Shown here: in pieces, positions 37,922 to 57,236 of the stretch
How positions within the stretch are numbered: position 1 is the stretch's first letter
Layout of the letters: each line of letters opens with the position of its first letter
Assembly: GCA_015956445.1 (NCBI GenBank)
Contig: WIUZ02000001.1
Coordinates: 4,154,001-4,218,000 of the forward strand
Source: Thelephora terrestris
Taxonomy: Eukaryota > Basidiomycota > Agaricomycetes > Thelephorales > Thelephoraceae
Direction of reading: 5' to 3'
DNA length: 64,000 nt
Notes under the pieces: model-generated
Told to the model about the DNA's origin: nothing
The model's database searches: none
What the model saw: the letters and a program-made list of their open reading frames with translations, nothing else
Program-made: the position numbers and the translations under genes

Positions 37922-39168
37922 GGATAAAGAGATGTGGTCGGGTATATTATCTCATCCAGCCGAGACCCGGAAACCAAAAGATCCCAAGTCTCCCACGGTG
38001 AACACAGGAAACCGGTGCACCACGAGGGTTGGGCGATAGAGAAACTTGCTCAGGCACTCCTTCATCGACGATGTCGACCATAGCGATCTCGTAGCCCGCC
38101 CGCTCGTTGGAACCCGATGGGCGGAACCCTGTCACCGGAGGCTATGGTGAAGCGGACGCTCTCCATTCACGGCCGCGCCCCAACGAGATCTCCGACGCTG
38201 GCGTGCTAGCCTAGTCGCACAGCTATTCAACAATCGTAAATCGCATGCGCGCCCTCAAAATTGACCTGTACCGCCGCAATGGGATGGGTAACGCACTTTG
38301 AGCCTGTCGATGTCCTCCTCCAACCTCAAATCCCCACGGTCGTCCCTCTATCGGCATTCGGTCGTTAAGCTCGAATATTTTTTAGAGGTGGCGTCTTTTT
38401 CCTTTTATTCCTCTCTCCCACCTCTCAACCACAAGCAGGACGGTCGACCATACGATGGCCACCCACATCAGATGGCTACCACGACCCCACGAAGCTAGCC
38501 AAGTTCCAAACTATTCGGTATATCCTCATTGACTCAGAAATGCCACGAGCTCCGGTTGGGATGATGCTATCCCCCATTGGATCTGCGCCGAACTTTCAGC
38601 AATCTCGTTCGAATATGTTTAGACGGAAGTCGTTGAGACCTTAGGCTAGCCGAGTCGGAATTCAATGGCGCAACAAGGTGTAAGTAGGAGGAGTCACGGT
38701 CACCTTTGAGTTTCTCACAAACCCGGTTTGCCCAGGCATGAAGTTTATGTCCAAGTTCAGACCGTTCGGCGTTATGATTTTACGAAGCCGTGCGGTGGGG
38801 AAAGCCGTTTCTCGTGGCTAGGGTTGGGTGCTAAGGCCCAAGGCCTCTATTTACCCGTAGTTTTTGCAGTTTTTGCTTAGTCTGTCTTGTGACCCCTCTC
38901 GGATATCCTGTGTTGCGGCGCAGAGCCAGAGGCCAGTATTACGAATCAGATCACTTCCACCGCTCTTGGCATTCGGCGGCCCACTCACATCCGCCATCAG
39001 ACCATCGTCTACACCTCTGTCCCGAACCATCCCCTCCCTCAACCTACCAGGCCCAGACCTTCAGGAATCGGCAACGACACACCCTTCATAGTTGCCACCG
39101 ACGACAGTGACGACCCCTGACATTTCCACATCCCGGGGCGCTTACCAGCCGTCCCAACCCTGGTGTTC
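37922..39168. other. Divergent intergenic region
   Basis: These 1.25 kb lie between two divergent start codons. Short frames on both strands have no support. It presumably holds two promoters. Confidence 0.4.
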
Positions 39169-41646
39169 ATGTCGGCACTATCAGCCCGTTCGGACAGTAC
39201 CACAACCGCTTCGTCCAATTCAAGTCTCAAAATCGTCGGCATAGTCTTGGCTATCCTCAGTGGTTTCCTCATTGGGTCTTCTTTCGTCTTCAAGAAGAAG
39301 GGTCTGCTGCGCTCTCAAGCCGGTGGACCCGCGGGTGAAGGTGTCGCGTATCTCAAATCGGTGCGTCCTCCCGAGAACGATCTCACCCTTGCTCTCATTC
39401 ACTATATTCACGTTCGCTTTCAGGTACTATGGTGGTGCGGGATGATAAGTTCGTGTTCCTCTCCTTCCCTGGCTAAACCCTTCTCGTGACATTCTGATCG
39501 GGAAGCAGTGATGATACTCGGCGAGTTGTGTAACTTTGCTGGTCCGTATCTCTCGAAGTCTCTGGCCCGAATCTCCAGCTTACCGTTGCCATAGCATATG
39601 CCTTCGTCGAAGCGATCGTCGTCGTCAGTCCACTTTCGCCCCTGTCCCAGGCCCCATATCCACTCACTGACCTCGGCATTCCTCAGACTCCTCTGGGAGC
39701 GCTCTCCGTCGTCATCTCCGCCGTCCTATCTTCCATTTTTCTCAAGGAGAAACTCACATTTTTTGGCTGGCTGGGATGTGGGCTGTGCATTGTACGTTAT
39801 CGAGCCTGGAACATTTTCTTCCTCCTAGGTGCGCAGCATTGACCGTGTCCCTATTTCAAGCTCGGCTCCACGATCATCGCCCTCAATGGACCAACGGAAT
39901 CTTCCGTTGGTCAGATACGAGAGTTTCAAAAGTTGTTCCTCGCTGTGGGATTCGTGGTGTTTGGGAGCGTTATGATTGTGGCTTCCATCGTCATTGCTGT
40001 CTTTGTTGCCCCTAGGTGAGAGTATGAAAGCCTTGACCACGCTTTGCGTTTTCTCTGACCTCTTGAAAACGAAGATGGGGAAAGAAGAACATGATCTGGT
40101 ATCTCCTCATCTGCAGTATGATCGGTGGGCTCAGTGTCAGCGTCACGACCGGTCTTGGTTCCGCAATCGTTACATCCTTCAAAGGCGACAATCAGGTCCG
40201 TACACACGTGCTTCGTGAAACTGATTATCAGCCTTACGTATGCTTCACGCAGTTCAAGTATTGGTTCACCTATTTTTTGCTCGGTTTTGTTGTAGTCACA
40301 CTGCGTAAGTTAACCACGAGCTCTTCCTGCGTGAATCTATCACAAATACTTCCTAGTCACGGAAATATATTATCTCAACGTTGCGTTGGCGCTGTTTAAC
40401 ACCGGTGAGTCTTTCGTTGATTAACCAGTTACAGACAACTGATTAGTTCACAGCGATGGGTGAGCCCTCTCGATTCCCTTTCGATAGTCAGTCAACTGAA
40501 TTGCCATAAAGTCACCCCAACATACTATGTCATCTGTGCGTTGCGCCCTAATTCCTCAAATGAATGACAACTGATCCCGCCCTAGTTACCTTCTGTTCAA
40601 TTTTGTCCACGATTGTAATGGAATTGATATCTTCTGGGTGTCGCATCTATCTGACGGTTTTACCATAGGTCCTATTCCAGGGTTTGGAAGCACCCGTAAA
40701 ACAAATCATCACCCTCGTCATGGGTTTCCTGGTCATTTGCGTCGGGATAACGATCCTCCAGTTGTCCAAAGTCGATCCCAACCAGTTCAAGGGGCTCGAT
40801 CGAAAGTCCACCATTCTATTACAGGCCACGCGTGCAAAGACCGAAGGCGTTGGGGAAGACAGCGAAAAAGGCCTTTATGCTCTGGAAGACCCTGGCGTGG
40901 ATAGCATTCGGGGATCCTTTGGTGCTGTCGGAAGCATTATCAGAGCTCGGACGGTTCGGAAGATGAGCATGAACTCCGGCTTAGGGCGCTCGACGGATGC
41001 TGAACTCAGGGCGAGGCTGTCGCGTGGTCACCAACCAAACACCGACTCCATGGATGCCACACCCCATCTGGCTGCGGAACCGGTATCTAGCCACTTCGGA
41101 GGGCTGAAGCGACACCAGTTGTACGATCCCCCCGTGTCGTCGTCTGCTTCCGTTCTCGAGCCACCCGAAGCTCTTGGCCTGGTCGAAGGTTCGCCATCGA
41201 AACGACAGCAGACAATAAAGTTCGGAGACCGGGACGTTGTGCACTCTTACGCCAGGGTTGGAGTTAACGACCATAGGAGTCCTGTACACGAGTATCGGGA
41301 CTCGAACGTACCTCTGCCGAATGTCGCACCTCCTTTCAGGCTGGACGATCCCTTCGCCTCGACGAGCAGGTTACCGATGACCGCCGGTTTACCCCTGAGC
41401 CTTTCCTCTCCAGAAGAGCTCCATGCTGCTGATTCCCCTCGTGAAGAACACAGAAAGACAGGCTCGGGTACCCAGCACCTTCGGGGCTCAAGCGCGAAAA
41501 ACTACCCAAAGGGGGACGACGAGGACGACGAAGAGGAGAGCGAGGCCCTTTGGAACAGGGGCGTGAACCAGAGCGACGAGGAGAGCGAGATGGCGCTCGA
41601 GGAATCACTGAAGGGTATTCGGCTGGTCACACAATCCAAGGCGTGA
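39169..41646 (+). CDS. NIPA-type magnesium transporter
   Basis: The thirteen exons (598 aa) are 39169-39360, 39424-39448, 39509-39541, 39595-39623, 39687-39791, 39861-40015, 40075-40195, 40253-40304, 40357-40404, 40454-40459, 40512-40535, 40586-40614 and 40669-41646. All phases close. The first 330 residues hold about nine membrane helices of the NIPA/DMT fold. The first includes IVGIVLAILSGFLIGSSFVF. Family segments GELCNFAAYAF, VVTPLGALSVVISA, GLGSAIVTSFKG and ALFNTAMVTPTYYVIF are present. The C-terminal 260 residues are a cytosolic disordered tail with a DDEDDEEES acidic run. NIPA proteins move Mg2+ in plasma membrane or endosomes. Exon 10 is only 6 nt. The first four introns of the transporter core separate exons of 25-33 nt. 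Confidence 0.93.
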
Positions 41647-42382: not shown

Positions 42383-45144
42383 TTAACGGGTGCGAGGGAC
42401 GCGGTCATTGCCGAGCTCACCATTGGTGTCTGGTTCAACGGAGGGAGTGAGACTTTCCGTTGCTTCCTCAATCTCCCGAAGGAGAAGTTTGCAATTCTCG
42501 ATATCCTCCAGATTCCCCATCTTCTCGAAGATCCCTTGGGCACGTAGAGCCTCGGATGCTGCATCTTCGAGTCTGCCTTGTCGATACCAAATCGAGGCCT
42601 GCAAAAGGACTGCGTGACCAAGTTGATATGAGTCATCGAGTGCGTGCGATTTGGCTTGTCCGATGTGAAGGCATGCATTGTCGAATCGGCCTTCATCGAG
42701 AAAAAGCACCGCCAAGGACAAATGGGTCCCAAACAGGGTATAACGGTTGCCGAGAGTGGATGCGATTCCGAGAGCCAGCTTGTAATGGGAAATCGCCTTC
42801 TCTATCTCGCCCTTGGAACAATATATATGACCAAGGGTTTGATGTAATTGCCGGACCCGATCTTCTTGGCCTTTCTCCGGGAGAAGTTTGAACACTTCGA
42901 CTATTGCTTCTTCCGCCGCATCAAGCTGTCCAGCTGCATGTAATAACTGAGCAAGGGTACCCAAACACCCCACACGTGCCATCGTTTCACCGAGCTGCTC
43001 GTAAATTTCCATTGCTTCCCTCGCCTGATCTATCCCTTCCTCGGGACTGCCTAGAAGCAGATTTGAACGGGATAGGGCCTGCAATATTGTAGCAACTCCG
43101 TAGTCGTTCCCCCGTTCTCGCACAAGCTTCAAGGCGTGCCTGAGAAACAATGCACTCTCTGTGGGATTTCCGATTGCTCCATACAAACATGCAAGATCGA
43201 GCAAGCATAGAGGCTTGGAGGGATGATGATCAGGAAGTTTCTCAATCCTCTTCCTCAGCACGGTCAGCCGTGGTTTGTGGCACCAGAGGTGATCCATAAA
43301 TTTGGCGCAGGCATACCAGACATCGTCTGAATTGGGATCAGCAGAGGCGAAGACATCGAGTAAGTGCTCGACATTCAAGTCCTCTGACACGATCCACCGC
43401 CCCTCTTCAGATTTAACAAGATCATGGTTGGTCGACATCCGGGCGAAGTAACATTCCTTGGTCGTGCACAGGAGTGGAGATGTCATTGGGTCTTTGGGGC
43501 GGAGATGGTCTCGGAGTGGGGCGAGCATAGTGATGAACCCATTGCTGCGGTACGCTAGGGAAAGCATGCAAAGCGTGTCAAAGATGTGGGTCCTGTCCGA
43601 GACCGTGGGGAACAACCACTCGAGGTTCTTCTCGTCGATACCTTGCGGGTAGAAGGCGATGACTCCCAGAATTCCTCGGGCGTCGGGTCCGAGCCCTTGG
43701 AACATCGGAGAGTCGAGGGACAGTTGGATCGTGGCAGCGAGGCTCGTCCGATGCGCCGTCCGCAGAGTGTCCGTTCGCCGTCCCTGCCATTCCTTGACCA
43801 ATCGTTCGACGTCCCACCTGTTCTGTTGTGCGACTGTGGCGAGCAGGGTGACTGAGAGGGGATGGAACTCCAGTTGCACAAGGATGTCGTCCACCAAATC
43901 CGACCGCCCCCACCTCTTGTATCTTTGATAAAACACGTCCCGGGCGGCCTCCATCGATAGCGTTGGTATGTCGAGCGGCTCGCAATCGGGTGGGACGGTG
44001 GATATTCGGGATGTGATGCAGATACATATCGTCTTCAATTGGCATAGCTCCTCCACGCAGTCATATATTTCCAGAGCTTCTGTACCCTGTGGGTCGAGGA
44101 TTGATTCTGCATTGTCAAGAACTACGAACATCTCCTTTGAGGATAGGAATGGGAGCAGAGAAGCCAAATCGTTGGGGTTATCGATCCCTGCCCCGGTGAC
44201 CTCGGAGAGCCGACCGAGGAAATGCGGGAGTGTGGCTTGGAGCTGGTCGCACCGAATAAAACGAAGGTTATCGCCAAAATGTTGCTTAATCCGATCGTCA
44301 TGGAGGACCGCCAATGCGATGGAAGTCTTGCCGATCCCTCCAGCACCAATCAGGGCCATCGGTTCCAGCTTCTCAGCGAGGCCAACAATCTTCTCGATCT
44401 CCTCATCGCGACCGAAGCATGCCCTCAGCGCTGGAGGAGGTAATTCACCGGGCGCGTTGGCCGCAACCATGACAGACTGGATTGTGGATTAGATCAGTTA
44501 CACAGTTCAACCATTGACACTCACCTGGCAATCGGTGACGGCGTTTAGGATGTTGTTCATGAGTTCAGACACAACCTTGCCATCCTCGTGGTTCCCCATG
44601 CATCCCATGATCTCGAGTCGATCAGACGCATCCTTGAGCTTGTCCTTGATCTGTTCCAGGGAACTAAGGAAGATTAAATGCAGGTTTGAATGAAGAGGTT
44701 CAAAACCGCTGACATGAGCAGAGTGTCATTTCGTATCAGTTGGGGTTTATGAGCCGTATCCCCATCGTCCATTCCTAGACCCAACCTATCCAGAGCTTTC
44801 AGCAAGACGTCAAACTTCTCCTTTGTCGCAGATGACTCCTAATAGCCGGTCAGGTGGACACCTAACAACGAGAGCCACTAATCATACCTCTTGCTGTTGA
44901 GTCAGGAACGCATCGAAGGTCGACTTGTGTCATCGAACGATTCGTCAGCCCAGATGATATAGAAAAGGGGAAGGATAGGTAGCCTCACGGTCAGTTTTCT
45001 GATGTGAATAGCCGTCAATTGCTCTGGGGATAGCTGTGTCGACGCCGACTGGGATGCTGTATAGTTCCCGCCTGGTAGCTGAGGAGGAGGCTGCGGTCCG
45101 AGGTGGCCGCTAGGGCCTGAAGTACCTCGAGGGAGGGTAGACAT
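42383..45144 (-). CDS. NLR-like STAND protein, NB-ARC plus TPR (NLR1)
   Basis: The exons on the minus strand are 44989-45144, 44888-44923, 44714-44838, 44525-44663 and 42383-44476, giving 849 aa. Residues 1-150 form a disordered then helical N-terminus (FDAFLTQQQEE, LEQIKDKLKDASDRLEIMG) of unknown type. The nucleotide-binding domain starts at CFGRDEEIEKIVGL. It has Walker A GAGGIGKTS, Walker B MFVVLDNAES and the sensor CITSR. A winged-helix-like part includes GVIAFYPQGIDEKNLEWL and LRDHLRP. C-terminal TPR-like helices fill about 560-820 (DAAEEAIVEVFKLLP, GEIEKAISHYKLAL, GRLEDAASEALRAQ). NLRs of fungi are sensors in allorecognition, defence and cell death. It is a tandem paralog of the next gene upstream, but with a different N-terminus. 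Confidence 0.88.
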
Positions 45145-45780
45145 GATTTCCTGACGGCAGTAGACCACGATGGGAAGGTGAAAGAAGGAGGCCGCCACAC
45201 TGCGCCCAAATACCGCCGGACTGAGCGCCAGTTGTCACAGCATACGAAACTTCCCGCGCTAGTACGCGACCGAGCTGGCGTTGTGGAGCGACCGGCAATG
45301 TTTATTGCAGGGAAAGTTCACCAAAGACGAAGGACTGGAACAGGAGTGGTATCCAAAAAAGAGCGATTTCTCGTTGGTAGACGGTGGTCGATCCAGAAAG
45401 GTGCCTGCGATCAAGTCTTCCACCTCCGTCTTACCTTTCGCTCTGGCATCCCTCCACAACGCTGTTTTCTTTTGCCACTCCGCGCCCGACGAAGCCACCG
45501 TACCTTGGGGCTGGCGACCACACATTCATTGGCACAAATTTCACCACGCAATTTCTTGCACGCTATTCGGTTGGGTCGCCGGTAATTCGAATGGCAGACC
45601 TGGTCGATCCTGAGGAATTTTTGCCTGAGGCAATTACAGAGACGTTGAAAATACATACAAACGTGGCATCATAACTAAGAAGGGTGTAGTACATACAAGC
45701 GCACCTAACTTATTGATGGGGATTACATGAGGTAAACCAGTAGGATAGTTCAGGAATGAAACGATCGTTCAGAGGTGTAA
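45145..45780. other. Promoter region of NLR1 and 3' flank of NLR2
   Basis: This 636-base spacer lies between the two tandem genes. Overlapping short frames on both strands lack family resemblance. No RNA gene is seen. Confidence 0.4.
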
Positions 45781-48750
45781 TCAAAAATCACGAAGAGTAT
45801 TCGCCGAGATGTGGAACCGTTTCCGGTAGGCTAAGTTGAAAGGGGAGTCAACGGGTGCGGGGCCCCTGGTTTTCTCTGGTAACTCACCATTGGGATCTGA
45901 TCCACCGAAGGGAGAAAGACTTTCCGTTGCTTCTTTGATCTGCTGGAGGAGAGCTCTGCACGTCTCGAGATACATGCGATTCCCTAGCTTCTCGAACGTT
46001 TTTCGGGCGCGTAGAGCCTCGGATGCTGCATCTTCGAGCCTGCGTTGTTGATACCAAATCGAGGCCTGCAGAAGGGCTGCGCGACCGAGGTTGTATGCGT
46101 TATCGAGTGCGTACGGCTTCGCTCGCTCGATGTGGAACTGTGCCCCGCCGAACTCGCCTTGATCGAGGAAAAGCGCCGCGAGGGAATACTGGACCCAAAA
46201 CAGCGTAGGACGCCAGTCGAAGGCGTATGCGATCTTGAGCGCTCTTTCAAAATGGTGGATAGCCTTGTCTCTCTCGCCCTTGGAACGATATAGATCGCCA
46301 AGGGTTTTATGAGACACGCAGACCTGATCTTCTTGGCCTTTCTCTGGGAGAAGTTTCATCGACTCGACCAGGGCTTCTTCTGCAGCATCGAGCTGTCCGT
46401 CGTCTTGCAGTAACCGAGCAAGAGCCCTCAAACACCCCGCACGCTCCAACGCTGCATCAAGCCGCTCGTGGATTTTCAACGCCTCCCTTGCCTGATCTAT
46501 CCCTTCCTTGTAGCGGCCCAGCGTCCGGTTTGCGTTGGATAGGTCCTTCAATACGCGAGCAACTCGCACGTCGTTCCCCCGCTCTCTCTCGAGCTTCAAG
46601 GAATGGTTGAGGAGCGATCTCTCTTCTGCGCAACTTCCGATTACTCTGGACAACGACGCAAGCCGAGACAAGCACCGAGACTTGAAGCGATGATTATCAG
46701 GAAGCCCCATGATCTTTCTCTTCAGCACAGTCCTCCGTGGTTTGTGCCATAAGAGGTGTTGCAGAAAGTTGATACAGGCATCCCAGGTGTCGTCCGAGTT
46801 CGGATCGACGGACGTGAAGACGTCGAGCAAGTGTTCGACATTCGTGTCCTCTGACAAGATCCATCGCGTGTCCCCGGACCCAGGTAGGTTTGGATTGACC
46901 TTGGCTGACATTCGGGTGAAATACCGTTCCTTGGTCACACACAGGAGTGAGGATGACATCGGGTTCTTGGGACGAAGGTGGTCTCGGAGCGGGGCGGGGA
47001 CCGTGATGAACCCAAGGTTGTTTCGGTTCGTGAGGGAAAGAAGGCGGAGCTGATCGAAGATGCGGGTTCTGTTGGGAATGGTAGGCAATAGCCAGTCGAG
47101 GTTCTTCTCGTCAATGCCTTGCGGGTAGAAGGCGATGACTCCCAGAAGCTCTCGGGCGTCGGGTCCAAGCTGCTTGAACATCGGGGAAGCAAGAGAGAGT
47201 TCGATCGTGGCCGCGAGGCTTGTCTTGTGCTGTAGTACCCCAGTCTTGTGTTCCTCCCACCCCCTGACCAACCGATCACTGTTCCACATGTTTTGATGCG
47301 CGACGGTTGCTAGTAAGGCGACCGATTGGGGGTGAAAATTGAGTTGCTTCAGGATATTGTTGAGGGGATCTGGCCGTCCGTCGTATTTGTAGATGTTATT
47401 GAACGTGAGATATGCGGCATCGGTCGATAGTGTCGGAATTTCGAGGGTTTCGCAATTCGAAGGGATAATGGAGATGCGGGATGTGATCACAAGACAGATG
47501 TTACTAAACTGGTTTAGTTCCCCCACCAAACGATAAACCTCCTGTCCATTGGCCCCATGTAGGTCGAGAATTGATTCGGCATTGTCGAGGACTATCAACA
47601 TCTCCTTGGAAGACAGAAACGGTCGAAGGGAATTCAAATCCTCAGGGTGTTCGACACCCGCACCGATGGCCTCGGACAGTCGAGCGAGGAAATGGGCACG
47701 GGAGGCCGAGAATTCATCGCAACGGATGAATCGTCGGTGACGGCCAAACCGTTTCTTCATGCGATCCTGGTGGAGAACTACCAACGCAACTGACGTTTTC
47801 CCCATACCACCCGCACCGACGAGAGCGATTGAAGTGAGGGATTCTGCAAGGCCGACAATCTTCTCGACCAACTCGTCGCGTCCAAAACAGGCACTCGGTG
47901 GAGGAGGAGGGGATTCTCCGGGTGTGCTGGATAAAACTATAAGCTACTGGATCAATTCGTAGTTGAGATCGCAAACCTCGTAAGAGTCTAGGAAACGGTT
48001 AGAGTGTATTCATTGATTGATAGAGCAAAACAAGTTCTTACCAACGGATTCCAATCATCAGCCGCTTGCTCCACCGTGGTTCGATGGATTCCTGGAGAAA
48101 TATTGTGTGTGTTGGAGACCGCCACACGGGTATTGGTTTCAAGTTCGGTCTGCAAACAGTTAGTCAGCGGTGTGAAAGAGGAAGCGATGAGACGCACGTT
48201 AAACACGTCAAGAATCACGTTGAGGTCCGACATCCAGGCGGCGATCATGTCTCTGTCATTCTTCGTGCGGAAAAGTCGAGAGATGACACTTCGTTTGGCT
48301 AGCTTGCCGACGGACCTCTGGATCTCTACCACAATCCTGCGATGAAAGCCGGCGTGGTGAGCAACTTAAGCACAGCATCCATATCCGCTGGTCCAACTCA
48401 CGTAGCCAACCGTTCAATCGCCTCGAACACAGACTGATTTAATTGGTCCGCTCGTCGGCCATCCGTCCCCCGGTCGAGGGATTTACAGACGCCAGCACAG
48501 GCTAGCCCTAGTTCAACATAATCCGTTCTGTTGACCATCGAGTCCTGTTCAGATCAGCCAGCGGTCGGCCAAAACGAGCTGTGAGAAAGCTTACTCTAAT
48601 CATGGCGAGAAGGTCACTGGTAGAGCCAAAAAGGACCTTGGCCAGTATGATGCTGGAGGTCCACCTCCCACGGTCCAGGGCTTCGATGGCCATGTTCAAC
48701 TTTGAAAGGATCTCATCCTGCCCATTTGGTCGCTGGGAGGTTGCATTCAT
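45781..48750 (-). CDS. NLR-like protein with MLKL-NTD/HeLo-like domain, NB-ARC and TPR (NLR2)
   Basis: The exons on the minus strand are 48595-48750, 48402-48544, 48198-48336, 48042-48149 and 45781-47943, giving 902 aa. Residues 1-146 form a helical domain with MVNRTDYVELGLACAGVC, TIVVEIQRSVGKLAKRS and IAAWMSDLNVILDVFN. This resembles the MLKL N-terminal/HeLo-like group of fungal executors. The STAND core begins at CFGRDELVEKIVGL, with Walker A GAGGMGKTS, Walker B MLIVLDNAES and VITSR. TPR-like repeats follow (DAAEEALVESMKLLPEKG, GERDKAIHHFERALKI). It aligns with NLR1 across the whole NB-ARC/TPR part. The N-terminal module matches the kinase gene at 49922-53617 exon by exon. A role in regulated cell death is inferred. 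The acceptor of the last intron (CAGTAG) was chosen because CAG would leave a stop in frame. Confidence 0.87.
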
Positions 48751-49921
48751 GGTCGATAGTTGTGGTTGCTGGGGGGGTGACGTGGTACAAAAGCAAGAAG
48801 CTGAACCCTAACCCAGATGACCAGTCACTTTGTCCTGACTCGCCTCGTGTAAATGGCATGACCCTCTGATGGAGGCAATTTGACACCCCGCGCCTCGAAG
48901 GGTCCGTGCTCGCGTGCGATGGGCCAATCCCCTGGATTCTTCGCCTCCAAGTTCGTGTCGTCGGTACCAGGGTGAATTTTGGGCAGGTGAAGTTATTGTG
49001 ATCACCGTTTGGTTCTCGTTGGAGCTAGGATTTGCGTTTTAGCTAGGACCGTGACTTCAAGTAGTATCTGGAGCGGTGCCGCGACGAAGTGGCACAAAGG
49101 GATTGCCTGGGACCCAGCCCGGTGACCCGAACGGGATGAATAGGCATCAGGTCTCTATTTGTACAAGGATCAGGGCCACATAGGGATGGATCCGGAACTG
49201 TACTCACAGTAATTTCTCGACGGAAGATTTGATGTTTGGCGCATCCCCAGAGAAACCCTCGAGCTTTTCGGAAAATCCACCGTTGAGAAAATGCGACATT
49301 TCGGCACCGAAATCAAGTCACGATAGCCCTTGAGCCTGATGAATGATCGCGAGGGCGCGGTCACGAACAGCGACCATACTCGACAGAGACAACTCTTTGC
49401 ACGCATTCAGGTATAACCATCTCACACAGGTTGGCCATCTTGCAGCTGCAGGTGTTCGCCGATGCCGCATTGTGCTCGTCACAATGTCACTGTCACGCCC
49501 TCGCCTGCCGTCGCTCGGGAACGGCGGGCCGCCTGGCCATTTTTCCACGTCCCTCAGGCTGCCAGTGGCCCCGGGCTTCGCCGTTGGTTCACGGACGATT
49601 TGAATCCTGGTATAGTCTGTGGCACTGCGCATATGTTGGTATATACCCACACAACAATTTTGACAAGTTGTGAAATGGGTGGTGCTGGGACGAGGTGGTC
49701 CATCGAAAGGGATGGTCTGAATTTGGCCTGCTTGGTGTTGTCGAAACTGCTACCGAAGAATAAGTCCCGCTACAATAGAACCTAAAGGACCTTCGACGAT
49801 TCATACTCGTCACCGCTCAAGTTCGATCACATCCCTGGTACAGGTGTATTCATAGTTAAACCTCCGCTGCCGAGTTACGGGGAGATGACCCTGGTGGATG
49901 ACTAGCATCCCAGGGGATCAT
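48751..49921. other. Intergenic, nothing recognised
   Basis: These 1.17 kb lie between NLR2 and the kinase gene. The frames on both strands are short and without motifs. It presumably contains the NLR2 promoter and the kinase 3' UTR. Confidence 0.4.
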
Positions 49922-52900
49922 TTATCCGCTGCAGTAGTCTTTTAGCGTAAAGTCCGAGATGAACCGGAGAAACGTACGATGGTAGCTCATCGTGGAACGC
50001 GAATCATTGAATTCCCTCTCGACATCTCCATTTCCACTAAGAGGCAGCGGCTTCCACGTCACCGAAAGTTGTCCCAAAATTTCAAAAACAGCCTGGACAG
50101 TGGGACGATCGACTGGCTGGGGTACCCAGCACCGTTCCAGGGTTTGCCACAGGTCATCTGTAAACCACACCCCTCTCGGTCTCTCTGGGCGTTCACCGTC
50201 AAGAACCTTTCTCATAACGATGAAGTCCTTATCACAGGCGAAGGGAGCTTGACCACCGAGCACCTCGAATATCACCATCCCCAGCGCATAACAATCCGAT
50301 CCTTTTGTTGGCCGGCTGTCCTTAAAACCAAACTGTTCTGGGTGGAGGAGCTCTGGACTCATCCACCGTGTGGTGCCACCGCCCGGGACAGAACTTAAGG
50401 GTGTGAGGTTTGTAGGATCCGAGACGATCGTGAGGAGTCCGAAGTCTGCTATACGAGCGTGACCGCTTAGGTCAATCAAGATATTAGCCTTGAGAGAGAA
50501 AATAGAGTTAGAGGAGAAAACAGTGATTCGGGTTCAAAATCGCACCCCCTTCAAATCTCCATGTATCATTTCCCGACCGTGCATGTATAGTAGCCCGTCA
50601 GTAACATCTTTGAGCTATTAGAAGGAATTATTAGAATCAAGAGTAGCATGGAGCATGGGAAAACCCTACGAGCTCGAACCGATTTACGTCTTCATTTGCC
50701 TTGATGAATTCATTGATGTTTCCATTGATCATCCACTCCGATACCATCGCAAAATGGTAATCATCCATCGTCACTCCCAGTAGTGGTAGTACGTTTGGAT
50801 GTCGAAGGCTCTTCCAAGTCACGACTTCCTTGTAGCACCTCTGTAATTGCGAGAATTATCCAACCAACAAACTTCAAGGTTTTTTTATAGAACTCGGAAA
50901 CCCACGTTCTTTATCTTCTCGAAGTCGCTCGTTGAGTAAACCCTCAACACCTTGACTGCAACTGGGTGACCATCAAGTTCGCCCTTCCAGACATCAGCGT
51001 ACCCGCCGTGATACTTCGGGGTGCCCGATCGATCATAGCAATGCGGGACATGCACGGATTTCGGAAGCAATGACTGCTGGCCGCATATCTTGCGCAAGAC
51101 ACCCAGACACTTCTTCTGGAGCCATGGTGCTAGCGTATCAAACATCTACATTGCAAGACGACAAGGTTCAACCACAAGTCAATGGTCGTATCCTCCCGAG
51201 CTCCGCGAGTAGGGAAGTACCTTGTCTATCACATCAACAAAGCACTGGGCATCGTCTCCACGTAGATGCTTAGCTGCCTCAGTTTCGTTGCTGTCGAGGA
51301 AGAGGGTTTTGACCTGGTGTGTGCGTTCATCTGCGGAAAGGGGTCTGCTAATCAAGCATTTCCATGCCGGAATATCGCTGCACGAGAGGGACTGCTCAAG
51401 CCGATGTAGACGACTGCAAGAGTTGAACCTTACAAGCTAGACAGAACTTCCAACGCTTTTGGGCGTCGTTGAGGCTCCCGATCCCAGCATCGTTGCATCA
51501 GTATCCATAACTCCTCCGTCAACATCGAGCTAGTCGGCCGCGGCGGGCGTTGACTACTGATGATTGCTGACATAGCCACGTGAGCTGGTTTGTCGCTAAA
51601 AGGTGCGGTGCTGGTGAAAGCCTTGTTAAATAAACAATGCATCAGGGAAGTTCCACAGACGTAAACACCGAAAAAGTTTTCTGTAACAGACCTCGATCAT
51701 GACACCAGCGAAGGAAAAAACATCAGCTTCCCTGCTGTGTGGCCCCAGAATGCCCAAGGTCTCCGGTGCAGCCCATTGCATGTCATACGTTGAAACATTG
51801 TGCATCGACACCAGGTCTTGCATGTCGGGAGAGATTCCAATGTCTGTGATCCGCGCACGGCCTGTGGTGTCTACGAGGACGTTTTGCTGCGTGGGTGTCA
51901 ATATAGTGGTGGGACGTGATCCAGAACAGTGGCGTACTCCCTTGAGAATCCCATGGATCACACCACAAAAGTGGAGGTAATTGAGACCTTCGGCGACATC
52001 AGATAACTGGTGATGCACGATGGGGTGAGCCCATCAAACAGTGTGACAGAGGGGATGCTTACAAGGCCAAATATATTCGCTCCTGGCTGATTTCTAATGT
52101 ATCCCGCCAGGTCTTCGTCAGACGTCCAAATCGAAATGAGCTGGAGAGGGCCGGTAGTCACACCCAGAAGGGGAACGATGTTTCGGTGTGCCAGATGTTT
52201 CCATGCTGCGACGGCCCGGTGGAAGGTCTGTGGATCTCTTCTGTGCCTTAGAATGGAAGGAAATTGGTGCTAAGGACGTACCCCTTTGACCTGCTGCAAA
52301 TCACCCCTGGCATGAGATTTTATGCGTCGAACGTACACCTTTGAACCATCGAAGGTCCCCTCATACGCACCTCTGGAAGCGGACGGGTCCAGACCAACCA
52401 CCAGAAGAGAGTCTGAAAGCATACAAGACTCGGGTAATGTCTTTTCGGTGCCGCATATCCTGCTTAGTTCACGCAAGAATTCTCGAAACGCGGGAATTGT
52501 ACAATCAGAAATACCGGGGAGAACCTGTGGCGGTGTTGAGCGCGGCGTGCAGAAGCTCATTTGGTGCCTCACATTATCCAGATACTCGGCGAGCCATGCG
52601 AAATCATGGCTTTGTAGCTCCGAGAAAACATACCTTTCCCCGCAGAGAAAATCACGGAGACGCTGGTGAAACTCCGGAGAAGCTTTGTCGAGGTCCTCAA
52701 GTTGTTTCAGTGAATCATGCAGGACCTTTGAATTTCTGGCTGAGGAGAAAACTCGGGAGTTCGCCCATTTCGTAGGTCCTGTGGAATAGACCTGGAAGCT
52801 CATGAGACTTAAGGAAGTTCCATGCGCCGCAATCAGATGGTTGCTTACCGACAGACCCCTAGATACCTCGTCCAGTTCTTTGACCGCGGTGCAGGTGAGG

Positions 52901-53617
52901 TCCGACGCGATCTCAGAGGCCTCTAAGGTACAATCAAGCACGTCCGAAACATCTCCATCGCTGTCCAAGGCATCCAATTGAATCTCGGTCGATGGAAATT
53001 TCCTCTAAAAAGAACCCCCCCTATCAGTGATGTGGATTACTAGAGACGTGGGGTGACGCACTTCAAACATACGACGGATCCTGTCGAGGTCCAACCTCCA
53101 GGCGGCAATAGTGTCTTTGTCTTTCTTCGCGTGGAGAACGCGGGAGACAGCACTTCGTTTGCCCACCTCGACGATGTTCTTCTGGATCTCCGTCGAAGTC
53201 CTGCAACCGACGCCATGGTGAGCAGCTCAGGCGTGATGTCCAAGTTCCCGCTGGTTCAAAACTCACGTCGTCAAGTGTTCAATGGCCCCAAGTACAGACC
53301 GATCGAGTTGATCCTCTCGTCGATCGGATATCGCCCGCTCGAGGGCGCTACAGACATCGACACAGGCTAGCCCTAGTTCGACATAATCCATTTTGTCAAC
53401 CATCGAGTCCTGTTCACATCAGCCAGCGGTCGACCAACACAGATTGAAGGGAGGGACCTACTCTAATCACGGGAAGAAGGTTGTTGACGGAGCCCAAAGC
53501 GACCTTGGCCGGTGTAATCCTTGTAGCCTCCTTTGCGTGATTTATGTCTCCGATGGCCAAACTTAGCTTTAAGAGAACGAGTTCCTGCGCTTTTCGACGC
53601 TGAAAAGCTGCGTCCAT
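49922..53617 (-). CDS. MLKL-like domain, pseudokinase and active TKL-type kinase in one gene
   Basis: The fourteen-exon model (minus) is 53462-53617, 53267-53409, 53062-53200, 52849-53004, 52282-52791, 52063-52227, 51938-52006, 51692-51886, 51443-51621, 51221-51413, 50906-51145, 50670-50840, 50546-50614 and 49922-50488. It encodes 983 aa. Residues 1-146 form an MLKL-NTD/HeLo-like helical domain, with MVDKMDYVELGLACVDVC and IAAWRLDLDRIRRMFE. The first kinase fold (about 325-570) looks inactive: VAVK is VYVR (Arg353) and HGDLKG is HGILKG (Ile443), while the metal-binding Asp461 stays in DIG. The second (about 670-940) keeps Lys700 in VAVK, Asp792 in HGDLKG and Asp810 in DFG. The link between exons 9 and 10 is the weak point. 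It needs a 29-nt intron (51414-51442) that avoids a stop at 51432-51430. Otherwise these are two genes, but the second would then start late, at 51145. Residues 571-635 match the usual N-terminal extension of the second kinase family. Confidence 0.75.
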
Positions 53618-54771
53618 CGTCGAAGCTCGTGGTAGCGGGGAGAAAAGGTTGCATGAAGGTTGCGAAGGGGAACCAGAACCCTTTTATAGACACGCGTTCG
53701 TTTTGTCGCAACGCGCTTCGAGCAAACATATGGAGGGAAATTCAACATCTCACAGGGTTTTATGGCGCAATCACCGGCTGAAGCGCTGATCGAGATCGCC
53801 TGTACATTCTATCCCCTCAAGCTTGTGCCACCGACACCAGAGTCAGCGTCACCGCATTTTCTTCTGTACGGGCATTACCGTATCCACTCGCTGTTTCTCG
53901 AAACGAAGTGAATCGACAGGATGGTCCATCAGCTCGGCGGCTCGGAGTCGAATGGGAGGAATTATATACATCTGGGATTCCTCATGCTCGTTATTGTCTT
54001 CAAATTCGTGTATTCCGTCGCCGAATTTTCACCATATCACTAAGTCGCCCCGCGTTCCATCCATCGCGGCTTTTCCGCTCTATGGTGTTTCTTCAGGAAA
54101 GCTGCCAACGTGTTGACGCGCCCACTGGCAAGCAAGATGCCGCCCTTGGATGGGAGTAAGAGTGGCCCAAACTTTCGGGATCCATTAGTGTCCCACCGGC
54201 CAAGGAAAAAGAGTAAACAGGCTTAGAGCACAACTTAAGTTGTTTCCGGAAGCAAAATCTTATAATCATTAGCGCCGGCAAACGGCATGGCCCACGACCT
54301 CCTGGAATCCGATTTACCACAGGTATGTAATCGCTCCCTTGCTCTTTCAATGTCAAAGCGAGAGCACTGTAGCATTCTACAGCTCCCTCGACCTGGTGTT
54401 CTCAAAGATCTGATTGGACGTCGTGTCCGGCTTGTCACTTTGAAAAATTGCGACCCAAATCGTGGATGTCATTGGGCGAGGTGTCAGCAGACAACCGTTC
54501 CTCTAGGGAGAAATAGCATCAGCTGACATCAGGGACTGAAGAACAGCTAACGCACAAATTCTGAAGCCGCGCGTCTGTTTTAACTAGCTCGCACCGTCCG
54601 TCTTCGAAACCGCAGAGGGAATTGGTTAATTCGCATATACCTTGAGCTCCTCCCTTGTGCCTTCTCGACAACACGGAGGTGTTTTGTCCCGCCCGAGCTG
54701 GGGGAGCATACTCGTATGCCGGTCGACAAAGTTAAAAAGACCAGCAACGAAAAGGGGCTGAGCGTTGTTTC
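53618..54771. other. Intergenic, nothing recognised
   Basis: This is the upstream region of the kinase gene. It has no coding frame with family resemblance, no RNA gene and no repeat that I can support. Confidence 0.4.
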
Positions 54772-55278
54772 ATGCAGGGTGGAAGACTGCAGTCGATTTG
54801 GCCTCGCAACTTGCTATCGCCCGTGGCCAGCAGAGAAGCGCCGCTTGAACGTGGCGTTGAACAATCCATCCACGCGGACAACCTCGCCGCACCATTCCTC
54901 AAAGGCTCTCCTCGTTTGATGGGCGCTCGAGGCGTCCTCACACCCGCAGTGACAACTTCACCCAGCCTCGAAGTCAGTTCAAACACTGATGGACGAATGC
55001 AAGGACGAACCGTCAACCCTTTTCCGCTTCCAAGGTGGTCACAAACGTCTGAGAGTCCACTTGGATCAAGCAAATTCCCTTCGCGGAGCAAATCGGGCAC
55101 GAACCTAACGGACACACAGGTTCATACTACCCGTCCTCCACAAGCTTTCGCCTGTCACTCCACACGGGTCTCGTTTGGGTTCCTCGAGTTTCACCCGTCT
55201 GTTTCTGAGAATCCCTATGGAGACGCCAAGCCCCTTAATCTCAGCCATTTCAATGCCAACGCTTTTGACACAACATGA
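54772..55278 (+). CDS. Possible hypothetical coding region, weak
   Basis: A 168-codon open frame has a Ser/Thr/Pro-rich translation including LMGARGVLTPAVTTSPSLEV and GTNLTDTQVHTTRPPQAF. Overlapping its end, another frame (55175-55411) reads IDSNCSLITNRIRNEQLIS, which also looks somewhat coding. A spliced gene using both is possible, but I could not find a convincing intron. I recognise no family, and the frame may be chance. Confidence 0.22.
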   Translation: MQGGRLQSIWPRNLLSPVASREAPLERGVEQSIHADNLAAPFLKGSPRLMGARGVLTPAVTTSPSLEVSSNTDGRMQGRTVNPFPLPRWSQTSESPLGSSKFPSRSKSGTNLTDTQVHTTRPPQAFACHSTRVSFGFLEFHPSVSENPYGDAKPLNLSHFNANAFDTT

Positions 55279-56510
55279 AGCAGAGCGCGTGGAGGCCAAG
55301 GTGATTTTCTCCCCACCTGTTATCGATTCAAACTGTAGTCTCATCACAAACCGTATTCGAAACGAGCAACTAATCAGCCAAATGCGAAGAATGAAAAACG
55401 AGGAGAGGTGAAACACGACGTACCATCAATGAAAACCGAACCTCTTCAATCGGCAGCAGATGGTTCAACTTCTGAGGCAGTTAGCTATCCCCCCGAGCTC
55501 CAAGACCCTACGTCACCAGGCCTCGTCAGAGTCCAAAAACCCGTGATCTAGAGTACGATAAAGTGTGGCGTAACGGTTACCTGTGCCTTTAGGGGCTGAT
55601 CCTGTGGTCCAGGCCGAACACGCATAATAAAGGGCATCACCCGAGCTAACGGCCAGACATAACTTCATTTCGGCACAGACGAGTCATAAGTCCAGGCATT
55701 TCCACTTAACTTATGATCAGCGCGCAATCAACCAACGAGGTTCCCAAATCCGCCCTGGGAGATTAATGGGTTTGCCGGTTCATCAGAGATGGCATGAGGG
55801 ACGCCGGTCGCATGCGGGAGGGAGGGGGGGGTGCGAGCAATCAGTTAATCGAGGGTGGTCCGCAGAAACGGAGTCGGGTACGTGAGACTGCCGGTCCAAG
55901 CCTCCCGAGCCCGTAGAAAACGTGGCCGTTGTGGGGGAGGACAGAAGATACAGTGTAGTACAGCGTGCGTAACGTGTGGATGTGGAGTCTGGACAGCACC
56001 GGCCACCGGCAAGATCCCAGCGAAAATCAGGAAATCGATAGCACAGCACCAAGCAGAGCCCAAGGGTGCGATCAAAACGGTGTAGACGAGAGAGAAAGTT
56101 TGAGATCGATGCTTTCGATGACTCGCACACGTACATTTTACGGCCCTACCAACGAATCCAACGCCATCGCGGTTAGGGGGCCAACGAAACGCCCACAGTT
56201 TTTGGGATACGCGATTCCCAGTACGGTTTGACCTGTCTTCGGTTCATATAGGGTGGAGAGGAGCAGGCGATGCGTCAAGCCTAAAGAGATGGAAGATATG
56301 AGAGGAACAAGAAGATGAGGCAGTTTCAAGCGCCTACCCCTATCCAATCGAGATGAGCGTCTAACCTCTCGCATCATCCCGACACTTCCCTCCGCCCAAC
56401 GGAGTCGACCAACACAACCTGCAGGCTACCGACACTACTCCCTGACGGTCCAACCCACAACCCCATCTCCACGCTCACGCCCTCACCACCAAAGATAAGG
56501 GTATCAAGAA
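55279..56510. other. Intergenic region upstream of the MRPS6 gene
   Basis: Apart from the weak frame ending at 55411, no gene is recognised. The last few hundred bases presumably hold the promoter of the gene starting at 56511. Confidence 0.4.
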
Positions 56511-57236
56511 ATGCCGTTCTACCGAATGATGTGCATCGCGGCTCACTACCCTGAATACGTGCGTCCTCCACGAGCTTCTCGCTCCCTCCTCACTGAACTC
56601 GAAACGGCGCTTTGGCTGACCGCTGTTGTCGGTGAAAAAACCAGAAACACATCAAGGACCTCGTGACGCAGTCCGCTATGCACGTGTTGGATAACGGAGG
56701 GATCGTTCGTGGTTTCCGGTATTGGGGAACGCGGACGTTACCGCAGAAAATGAGGAGGCAAAAACAGATCTTCAATTACGGAGAGTACGTTCCCCATTCT
56801 TTCTTGTTTCTCAGCAAAACCGCTGGGGTAACGCTCGCGCGCCAAACACCCAAACCCACTCATCAAATACCTCCGAGAATGACTGACCCACACCCCTTGC
56901 GATCAGTTACTGGTTCATGCACTTTGACGCGTCTCCGAAAACGCTCAAAGGCCTCCACACGCTCCTCCGAAAAGACCCTCGGGTGATCCGGTGGACAATG
57001 CTCAAAGAAGGCGAAAAGGTCCAGGACGTGGTCGAACTCAAAGACCAAACCATCGAACACTCATCTCCGTTCGATTCAGTGAGCTCGGCACCCACATCGT
57101 CGCCGGTAAGCAGCCTTTCCTCTCCGGTCACCAACAACCAGAAATGGCTAATTTTGTTGAATCTACCGTCCTGATTTGTCCCATGTATTGAAAAAATCGT
57201 ATCTAACGCGTTTAGGCCGACGATTGGAAACTCTGA
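56511..57236 (+). CDS. MRP17: Mitochondrial small-subunit ribosomal protein bS6m
   Basis: The exons 56511-56558, 56645-56784 and 56907-57105 are well supported. A last exon at 57216-57236 is tentative, giving about 135 aa. The protein reads MPFYRMMCIAAHYPEYKHI, then VLDNGGIVRGFRYWGTRTLP. Next come FNYGDYWFMHFDASPKTL and HTLLRKDPRVIRWTMLK. This is the bS6 ferredoxin-like fold, with the family features GG-I-VR near strand 2 and DPRVIR near strand 4. It matches yeast Mrp17 (131 aa) in order and length. bS6m binds bS18m and rRNA on the platform of the mitochondrial small subunit. If the last intron is not used, the frame ends at 57174 with a different tail. The gene is convergent with the HAD gene. 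Confidence 0.88.

Follow-up and report, generated by a model that had tools for sequence, protein, structure and literature searches.

An MLKL-like N-terminal domain shared by an NLR and a neighboring tandem-kinase protein of Thelephora terrestris

Thelephora terrestris is an ectomycorrhizal basidiomycete, and the stretch of its genome considered here (the window) comprises 64,000 nucleotides of contig WIUZ02000001.1 (assembly GCA_015956445.1, positions 4,154,001 to 4,218,000). Three large genes lie together on the minus strand between window positions 42383 and 53617, two of them encoding NLR-like proteins, termed NLR1 and NLR2, and the third a protein with an N-terminal helical domain followed by two kinase-like domains, termed KIN (Table 1). 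With splicing refined by hand each gene is intact, intron-bearing and read in a single open frame, and the spliced models agree exactly in coordinates with a preliminary description of the locus made from the DNA letters. An early KIN model with a 20-base intron was dropped for one with a 56-base intron. The public protein P0001 (881 amino acids) is NLR2 apart from one extra intron near the 3' end, and P0004 (943 amino acids) is KIN apart from two extra introns within exon 4 and the last residues.

The N-terminal domains of NLR2 and KIN are homologous. Beginning just 5' of the start codon and running through exon 3 with the intervening introns, the DNA of the two genes aligns with 70% identity (413 of 593 columns, E 1e-67); the encoded domains are 45% identical in protein sequence, and the intron positions and phases within the domain are the same. 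A public T. terrestris protein matches the N-terminal region of NLR2 with 100% identity. The shared domain is a basidiomycete MLKL-like (BaMLKL) domain of the MLKL-NTD/HeLo-like kind, forming a four-helix bundle like that of MLKL, and both the sharing and the MLKL-like nature anticipated in the preliminary description are borne out. Pfam MLKL_N is matched at E≤1 by 15 of the 23 domain-family members (best 3.1e-6), a figure that holds for the family and does not state whether KIN is among the 15, and PF22215 is a precomputed annotation on 6 of 120 listed relatives. A PDB search with the domain-family profile gives seven matches, every one of them to MLKL (best E 0.029), and the model of the KIN domain can be superposed on MLKL with 1.7 Å over 100 residues. 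The structure model is limited to the N-terminal domain of KIN because the underlying alignment (A3) contains 29 NLRs beside KIN. All nine invariant residues of the domain family are kept in KIN. Single-protein searches give fainter signals: a whole-protein Pfam scan places NLR2 alone under the MLKL_N cut-off and lists no MLKL_N match for KIN, and Foldseek by itself returns nothing for the KIN domain model at E≤0.001, the best match having 0.1 and MLKL (6zvo) standing at rank 10 with 0.51. By analogy with MLKL, the shared domain would permeabilize membranes and cause cell death.

Behind the bundle, Pfam recognizes two protein-kinase stretches in KIN (E 4.5e-72), and the order is bundle, pseudokinase, kinase. 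In the first kinase-like domain (K1) the VAIK lysine is replaced by arginine (VYVRRIK, residue 369), the αC glutamate by alanine (FHRAVAAW, residue 389) and the HRD aspartate by isoleucine (HGILKG, residue 460), and DFG is altered to DIG (residue 478). The second domain (K2) retains all four elements with the lysine in VAVK, the glutamate in CYKE, HGDLKGAN and DFG. Judged by these residues, K1 is a degenerate pseudokinase and K2 an intact kinase, and a pseudokinase lacking catalytic residues behind a helical bundle is the arrangement of MLKL itself. The HRD aspartate is retained at all six related tandem-kinase loci that align there (L050, L056, L058, L059, L061 and L062; L050 and L058 overlap, making five genes), and the other K1 losses are common to some related tandem kinases. 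A protein search with KIN residues 1–400 finds only KIN itself and one NLR among 7993 scored candidates, and no KIN orthologue is seen among these candidates in the T. ganbajun proteins of that database, in which some proteins of that species are present.

NLR1 and NLR2 had been described as tandem NB-ARC/TPR genes. The TPR part stands, with Pfam TPR matches over the cut-off in both proteins, as does a STAND-type ATPase with P-loop and ITSR motifs; the NB-ARC family itself, with 18.6 and 19.0 bits, falls short of its cut-off of 23.5 in the two proteins, for which reason they are filed as STAND/NLR-type. nSTAND1 is over its cut-off in NLR2 only (28.4 versus 27.1 bits) and AAA in NLR1 (22.1 versus 21.2 bits), and among 16 listed NB-ARC matches in this genome 15 pass the NB-ARC cut-off. 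Both proteins thus combine a P-loop STAND ATPase with superstructure-forming repeats. The closest structure to the NLR2 model is a STAND-TPR protein (E 9.8e-11), with APAF-1, CED-4 and NRC resistosomes lower in the list; the VIA list for this model is filled by TPR proteins and bears little on the N-terminal part. NLR1 is without the MLKL-like domain and carries a different N terminus, for which no Pfam family is over the cut-off and phmmer gives no match at E≤1 among 121 fetched proteins. The NLR1-type N terminus occurs at 16 genome loci, followed by a listed NLR match at 15, and forms a second N-terminal class.

Table 1. Window coordinates of the three genes, their exons and domains, and the flanking genes
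Feature	Position	Strand	Remarks
KIN	49922..53617	-	whole gene, 13 exons, 993 amino acids
KIN exons 1-5	53617-53462, 53409-53267, 53200-53062, 53004-52282, 52227-52063	-	
KIN exons 6-10	52006-51938, 51886-51692, 51621-51434, 51377-51221, 51145-50906	-	
KIN exons 11-13	50840-50670, 50614-50546, 50488-49922	-	
KIN exons 1-3, MLKL_N/BaMLKL-type N-terminal domain	53062..53617	-	residues 1-146; phase-0 intron at end
KIN first kinase-like domain K1, predicted pseudokinase	51434..52380	-	approximate bounds
KIN second kinase domain K2	50078..51007	-	Pfam, residues 692-942
NLR2	45781..48750	-	whole gene, 6 exons, 900 amino acids
NLR2 exons	48750-48595, 48544-48402, 48336-48198, 48149-48042, 47987-47977, 47926-45781	-	
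NLR2 exons 1-3, MLKL_N/BaMLKL-type N-terminal domain	48198..48750	-	residues 1-146
NLR2 STAND/NB-ARC-type ATPase region	46954..47889	-	P-loop GAGGMGKT 223, IVLDN 297, ITSR 333; approximate bounds
NLR2 TPR region	45940..46557	-	approximate
NLR1	42383..45144	-	whole gene, 5 exons, 849 amino acids; STAND/NB-ARC plus TPR
NLR1 exons	45144-44989, 44923-44888, 44838-44714, 44663-44525, 44476-42383	-	
NLR1 N-terminal region, different type (C-type, name coined here)	44525..45144	-	no Pfam family above cut-off
NIPA magnesium-transporter gene (flank)	39121..41646	+	3 of 4 tested pieces over Pfam cut-off
Ribosomal protein S6 (MRPS6-type) exons (flank)	56639..57006	+	family search, one of two matches over cut-off; C1:4210639-4211006

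The MLKL-like domain is widespread in this genome. Each genome search scored up to 150 candidates (the best 150 of 168 matches for the domain and 149 of 180 for K2), so that every total given is a minimum and the genome may contain another kinase fusion. The search with the NLR2 domain resolves into at least 122 loci, 103 of which have an NB-ARC-region match listed within 2.2 kb downstream. The 19 others comprise KIN and 18 loci for most of which 1.2–2.3 kb behind the domain was read, with kinases checked to 5 kb by the coordinates of the K2 matches: ten have NLR sequence (three as short pieces), two a fucose lectin and six neither NLR nor kinase. Searching again with the KIN domain brings in five more loci, four of which have an NLR, for a total of at least 127 domain loci, of which 117 carry NLR sequence (including the three short pieces), one a kinase (KIN), two lectins and seven no assigned partner. 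The putative execution module is common to NLR2, KIN and most NLRs of the NLR2 family in this fungus, and KIN alone among the matches listed has a kinase behind the bundle. The NLR search lists 129 different matches in the 40.6-Mb genome; 26 of these are without a listed MLKL-like domain, 15 of which have the NLR1-type N terminus, and four further listed NLRs are assigned the MLKL-like domain through the second search. The tandem-kinase family is likewise large with 180 matches for K2 and 92 for the middle region of KIN, and NLR1, NLR2 and KIN are adjacent members of expanded gene families.

The two lectin loci (L071 and L072 on contig C60, near 527702 and 601566) have the MLKL-like domain followed by a PF07938 fucose-specific lectin (E 5e-16 and 3e-18), an apparent lectin-controlled version of the module. 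Two loci on contig C17 (L012 and L023, near 380956 and 409915) combine the MLKL-like domain with a common short tail; no Pfam family is matched by the L012 tail at E≤0.5, the L023 domain is interrupted by a stop codon, and the pair may represent a stand-alone executor protein and its decayed copy. An MLKL-like domain exon at C59:268308-268442 has neither an NLR nor a K2-type kinase match nearby.

In KIN the domain ends at the phase-0 intron after exon 3, which is the fusion point, and the position of the exon 3 donor is common to NLR2 and both lectin fusions, suggesting exon shuffling of a portable module. The phylogenetic tree was built from 67 domain rows, leaving out L014, in which the first piece belongs to a different gene of the other strand, and L017, in which a spurious nine residues make up the third piece. 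KIN is placed on a long branch with P0042, P0014 and P0016 (support 90/69), beside other NLRs, and NLR2 groups with P0008, P0002 and L012 (95/83); a clade of KIN and NLR2 is neither shown nor rejected (approximately unbiased test, p-AU 0.275). In identity to the KIN domain NLR2 ranks 17th of 62 domains. Derivation of the KIN domain from NLR2 is accordingly not taken as proven. A position of KIN beside the lectin fusions was weakly supported only in a 69-row tree that contained the faulty L014 and L017 (p-AU for KIN with NLR2 0.473), and was dropped. By a rough sum that assumes 129 separate 3-kb genes, the zones extending 3 kb around NLRs of the NLR2 family take up about 2.9% of the genome, so KIN may owe its place beside NLR2 to having arisen within an NLR array.

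Taken together, NLR2 is probably an all-in-one NLR, a term used for NLRs with a built-in death domain (PMC12881547), and KIN a separate, exon-shuffled MLKL-like executor that does not serve NLR2 as a dedicated partner. Rather than one half of a conserved two-component system, KIN appears to be the product of a single gene fusion. NLR2 is ordered as BaMLKL four-helix bundle, STAND/NB-ARC ATPase and TPRs. From NLR and MLKL biology its TPRs would sense a ligand and its ATPase would drive nucleotide-dependent oligomerization, after which the clustered N-terminal bundles might permeabilize the membrane and kill the hyphal compartment, in allorecognition or defense. KIN would have arisen when exon shuffling brought the N-terminal module, up to its phase-0 intron, together with a tandem pseudokinase-kinase. 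In animals a separate kinase, RIPK3, activates MLKL. In KIN the bundle may be kept silent by the pseudokinase-kinase part and freed by phosphorylation as in MLKL, the protein acting as its own executor, and any contact between NLR2 and KIN would be putative.

The preliminary description had suggested that an NLR oligomer of NLR2 (perhaps with NLR1) recruits or triggers KIN through like-with-like contact of the N-terminal domains, making the genes a dedicated pathway. The same domain on adjacent genes speaks for this proposal, as does the mildly low chance of a lone kinase fusion falling next to such an NLR given the 2.9% noted above, and according to the Fig. 6 legend of PMC12881547 clusters of two or three genes are frequent among the death pathways of fungi. 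Against this, because NLR sequence follows the domain at at least 117 of 127 loci, domain sharing does not mark NLR2 as the partner of KIN, and the genome counts rule it out as a sign of partnership; at rank 17 of 62, NLR2 is also not the closest domain to that of KIN by identity. Nor are NLRs and the kinase family neighbors elsewhere: one of the 129 NLR matches, the one at this locus, has a listed kinase-family match within 5 kb versus about 4.6 expected from an even spread, and three within 10 kb versus about 9.1, the three including NLR1 and NLR2 (the expectations, taken from 149 kinase rows with some genes counted twice, are somewhat high). Within the T. terrestris genome no recurrent NLR-effector pairing of the nwd2/het-S type is found. 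If KIN had originated by recombination in an NLR array, the adjacency would be explained without a functional link. Recruitment of the kinase by the NLR finds no specific support, and a dedicated pathway is unlikely.

A separate question is whether KIN is one gene, or the first exons of a decayed NLR lying before an independent tandem-kinase gene and joined to it by gene prediction. The stretch directly behind the KIN domain is without a known kinase relative, because the listed middle-region matches start later (none before KIN residue 202 and one before residue 220), and the fusion is read from genomic sequence, both of which would fit two genes. That reading is nevertheless quite improbable, as the exon 3 donor is placed as in NLR2, the acceptor opens into an in-frame exon of 723 bases, the invariant domain residues are intact, and the public model P0004 starts with the same N-terminal domain and is fused too, though perhaps by prediction only. 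It is also rather unlikely that KIN acts like plant tandem kinase proteins as an immune sensor or decoy, in which the pseudokinase would be the bait and the helical domain would serve only localization or assembly; the pseudokinase adjoining an intact kinase agrees with such a role, and comparable parts occur in plant tandem kinase resistance proteins and in Pm13, an MLKL protein, in the sources as far as drawn on, but the plant-fungal relationship is shown for the kinase fold only and no pathogen or ligand is known. A more elaborate form of the executor reading, in which KIN would be a one-chain necrosome uniting bundle, pseudokinase and switching kinase and co-assembling with NLR resistosomes, that of NLR2 foremost, by way of the bundle they have in common, is doubtful; if true, one kinase could amplify or tune the death signals of more than 100 NLRs.

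Relatives of both proteins have been described. The BaMLKL-NLRs of Basidiomycota were surveyed by Wojciechowski et al. 2022 (PMC9815663), whose survey, in the sections drawn on here, covers NLRs and singular BaMLKL proteins. As in NLR2, the nucleotide-binding domain is preceded by an N-terminal bundle of the MLKL_NTD kind, which has one additional helix at the N terminus and a short one inserted between h3 and h4, and some of the proteins have TPRs; the BaMLKL-NLRs named there have NACHT, whereas the ATPase of NLR1 and NLR2 scores as STAND/NB-ARC. A word search of the survey returns no Thelephora, and the same sections mention no BaMLKL-kinase fusion. The Fig. 6 legend of PMC12881547 notes that some HELL domains belong to kinase or pseudokinase proteins, so that KIN varies a type of protein on which there is an earlier remark; the legend gives neither species nor protein names, and KIN differs in having a BaMLKL-type domain followed by a pseudokinase and an intact kinase. 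The FslK kinases (PMC3937382), a large Agaricomycete expansion near the tyrosine-kinase and tyrosine-kinase-like groups, resemble KIN as expanded Agaricomycete kinases, a likeness by description only, and the part of that paper drawn on mentions no N-terminal bundle. Among the open-licence titles and abstracts listed in literature searches, none describes the KIN protein and none is relevant to Thelephora NLRs.

Animal MLKL and plant MLKL proteins such as Pm13 likewise have a related four-helix bundle followed by a (pseudo)kinase. KIN differs from animal MLKL in its second, intact kinase and its extra N-terminal helix, and its role in death or at membranes is putative. Fungal MLKL-like NLRs are known from surveys and HELL-kinase proteins from a review. 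For the control of such bundles in basidiomycetes, T. terrestris provides a ready-made comparison, with one module standing before NLR sequence (at least 117 loci), fucose lectins (two) and a pseudokinase-kinase (one); the same bundle under three types of control allows a test of whether MLKL-like execution domains are interchangeable and whether kinase control arose repeatedly.

The housekeeping flanks named in the preliminary description are both present, but only one is adjacent. The NIPA gene adjoins NLR1, whereas MRPS6 is on the opposite strand to KIN, at a distance of 3 kb, and is not its immediate neighbor. Eight reading frames tested in or beside the roughly 3-kb interval that separates the two (window 53700–56600) match no Pfam family at E≤0.05. 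Elsewhere in the genome, equal-scoring pairs of NLR matches occur on contigs C12/C48, C5/C18 and C12/C42 and are counted twice in the totals; they are perhaps alternative haplotypes kept in the assembly. Contigs C2, C5, C8 and C45 carry groups of more than 10 NLRs across 300–500 kb.

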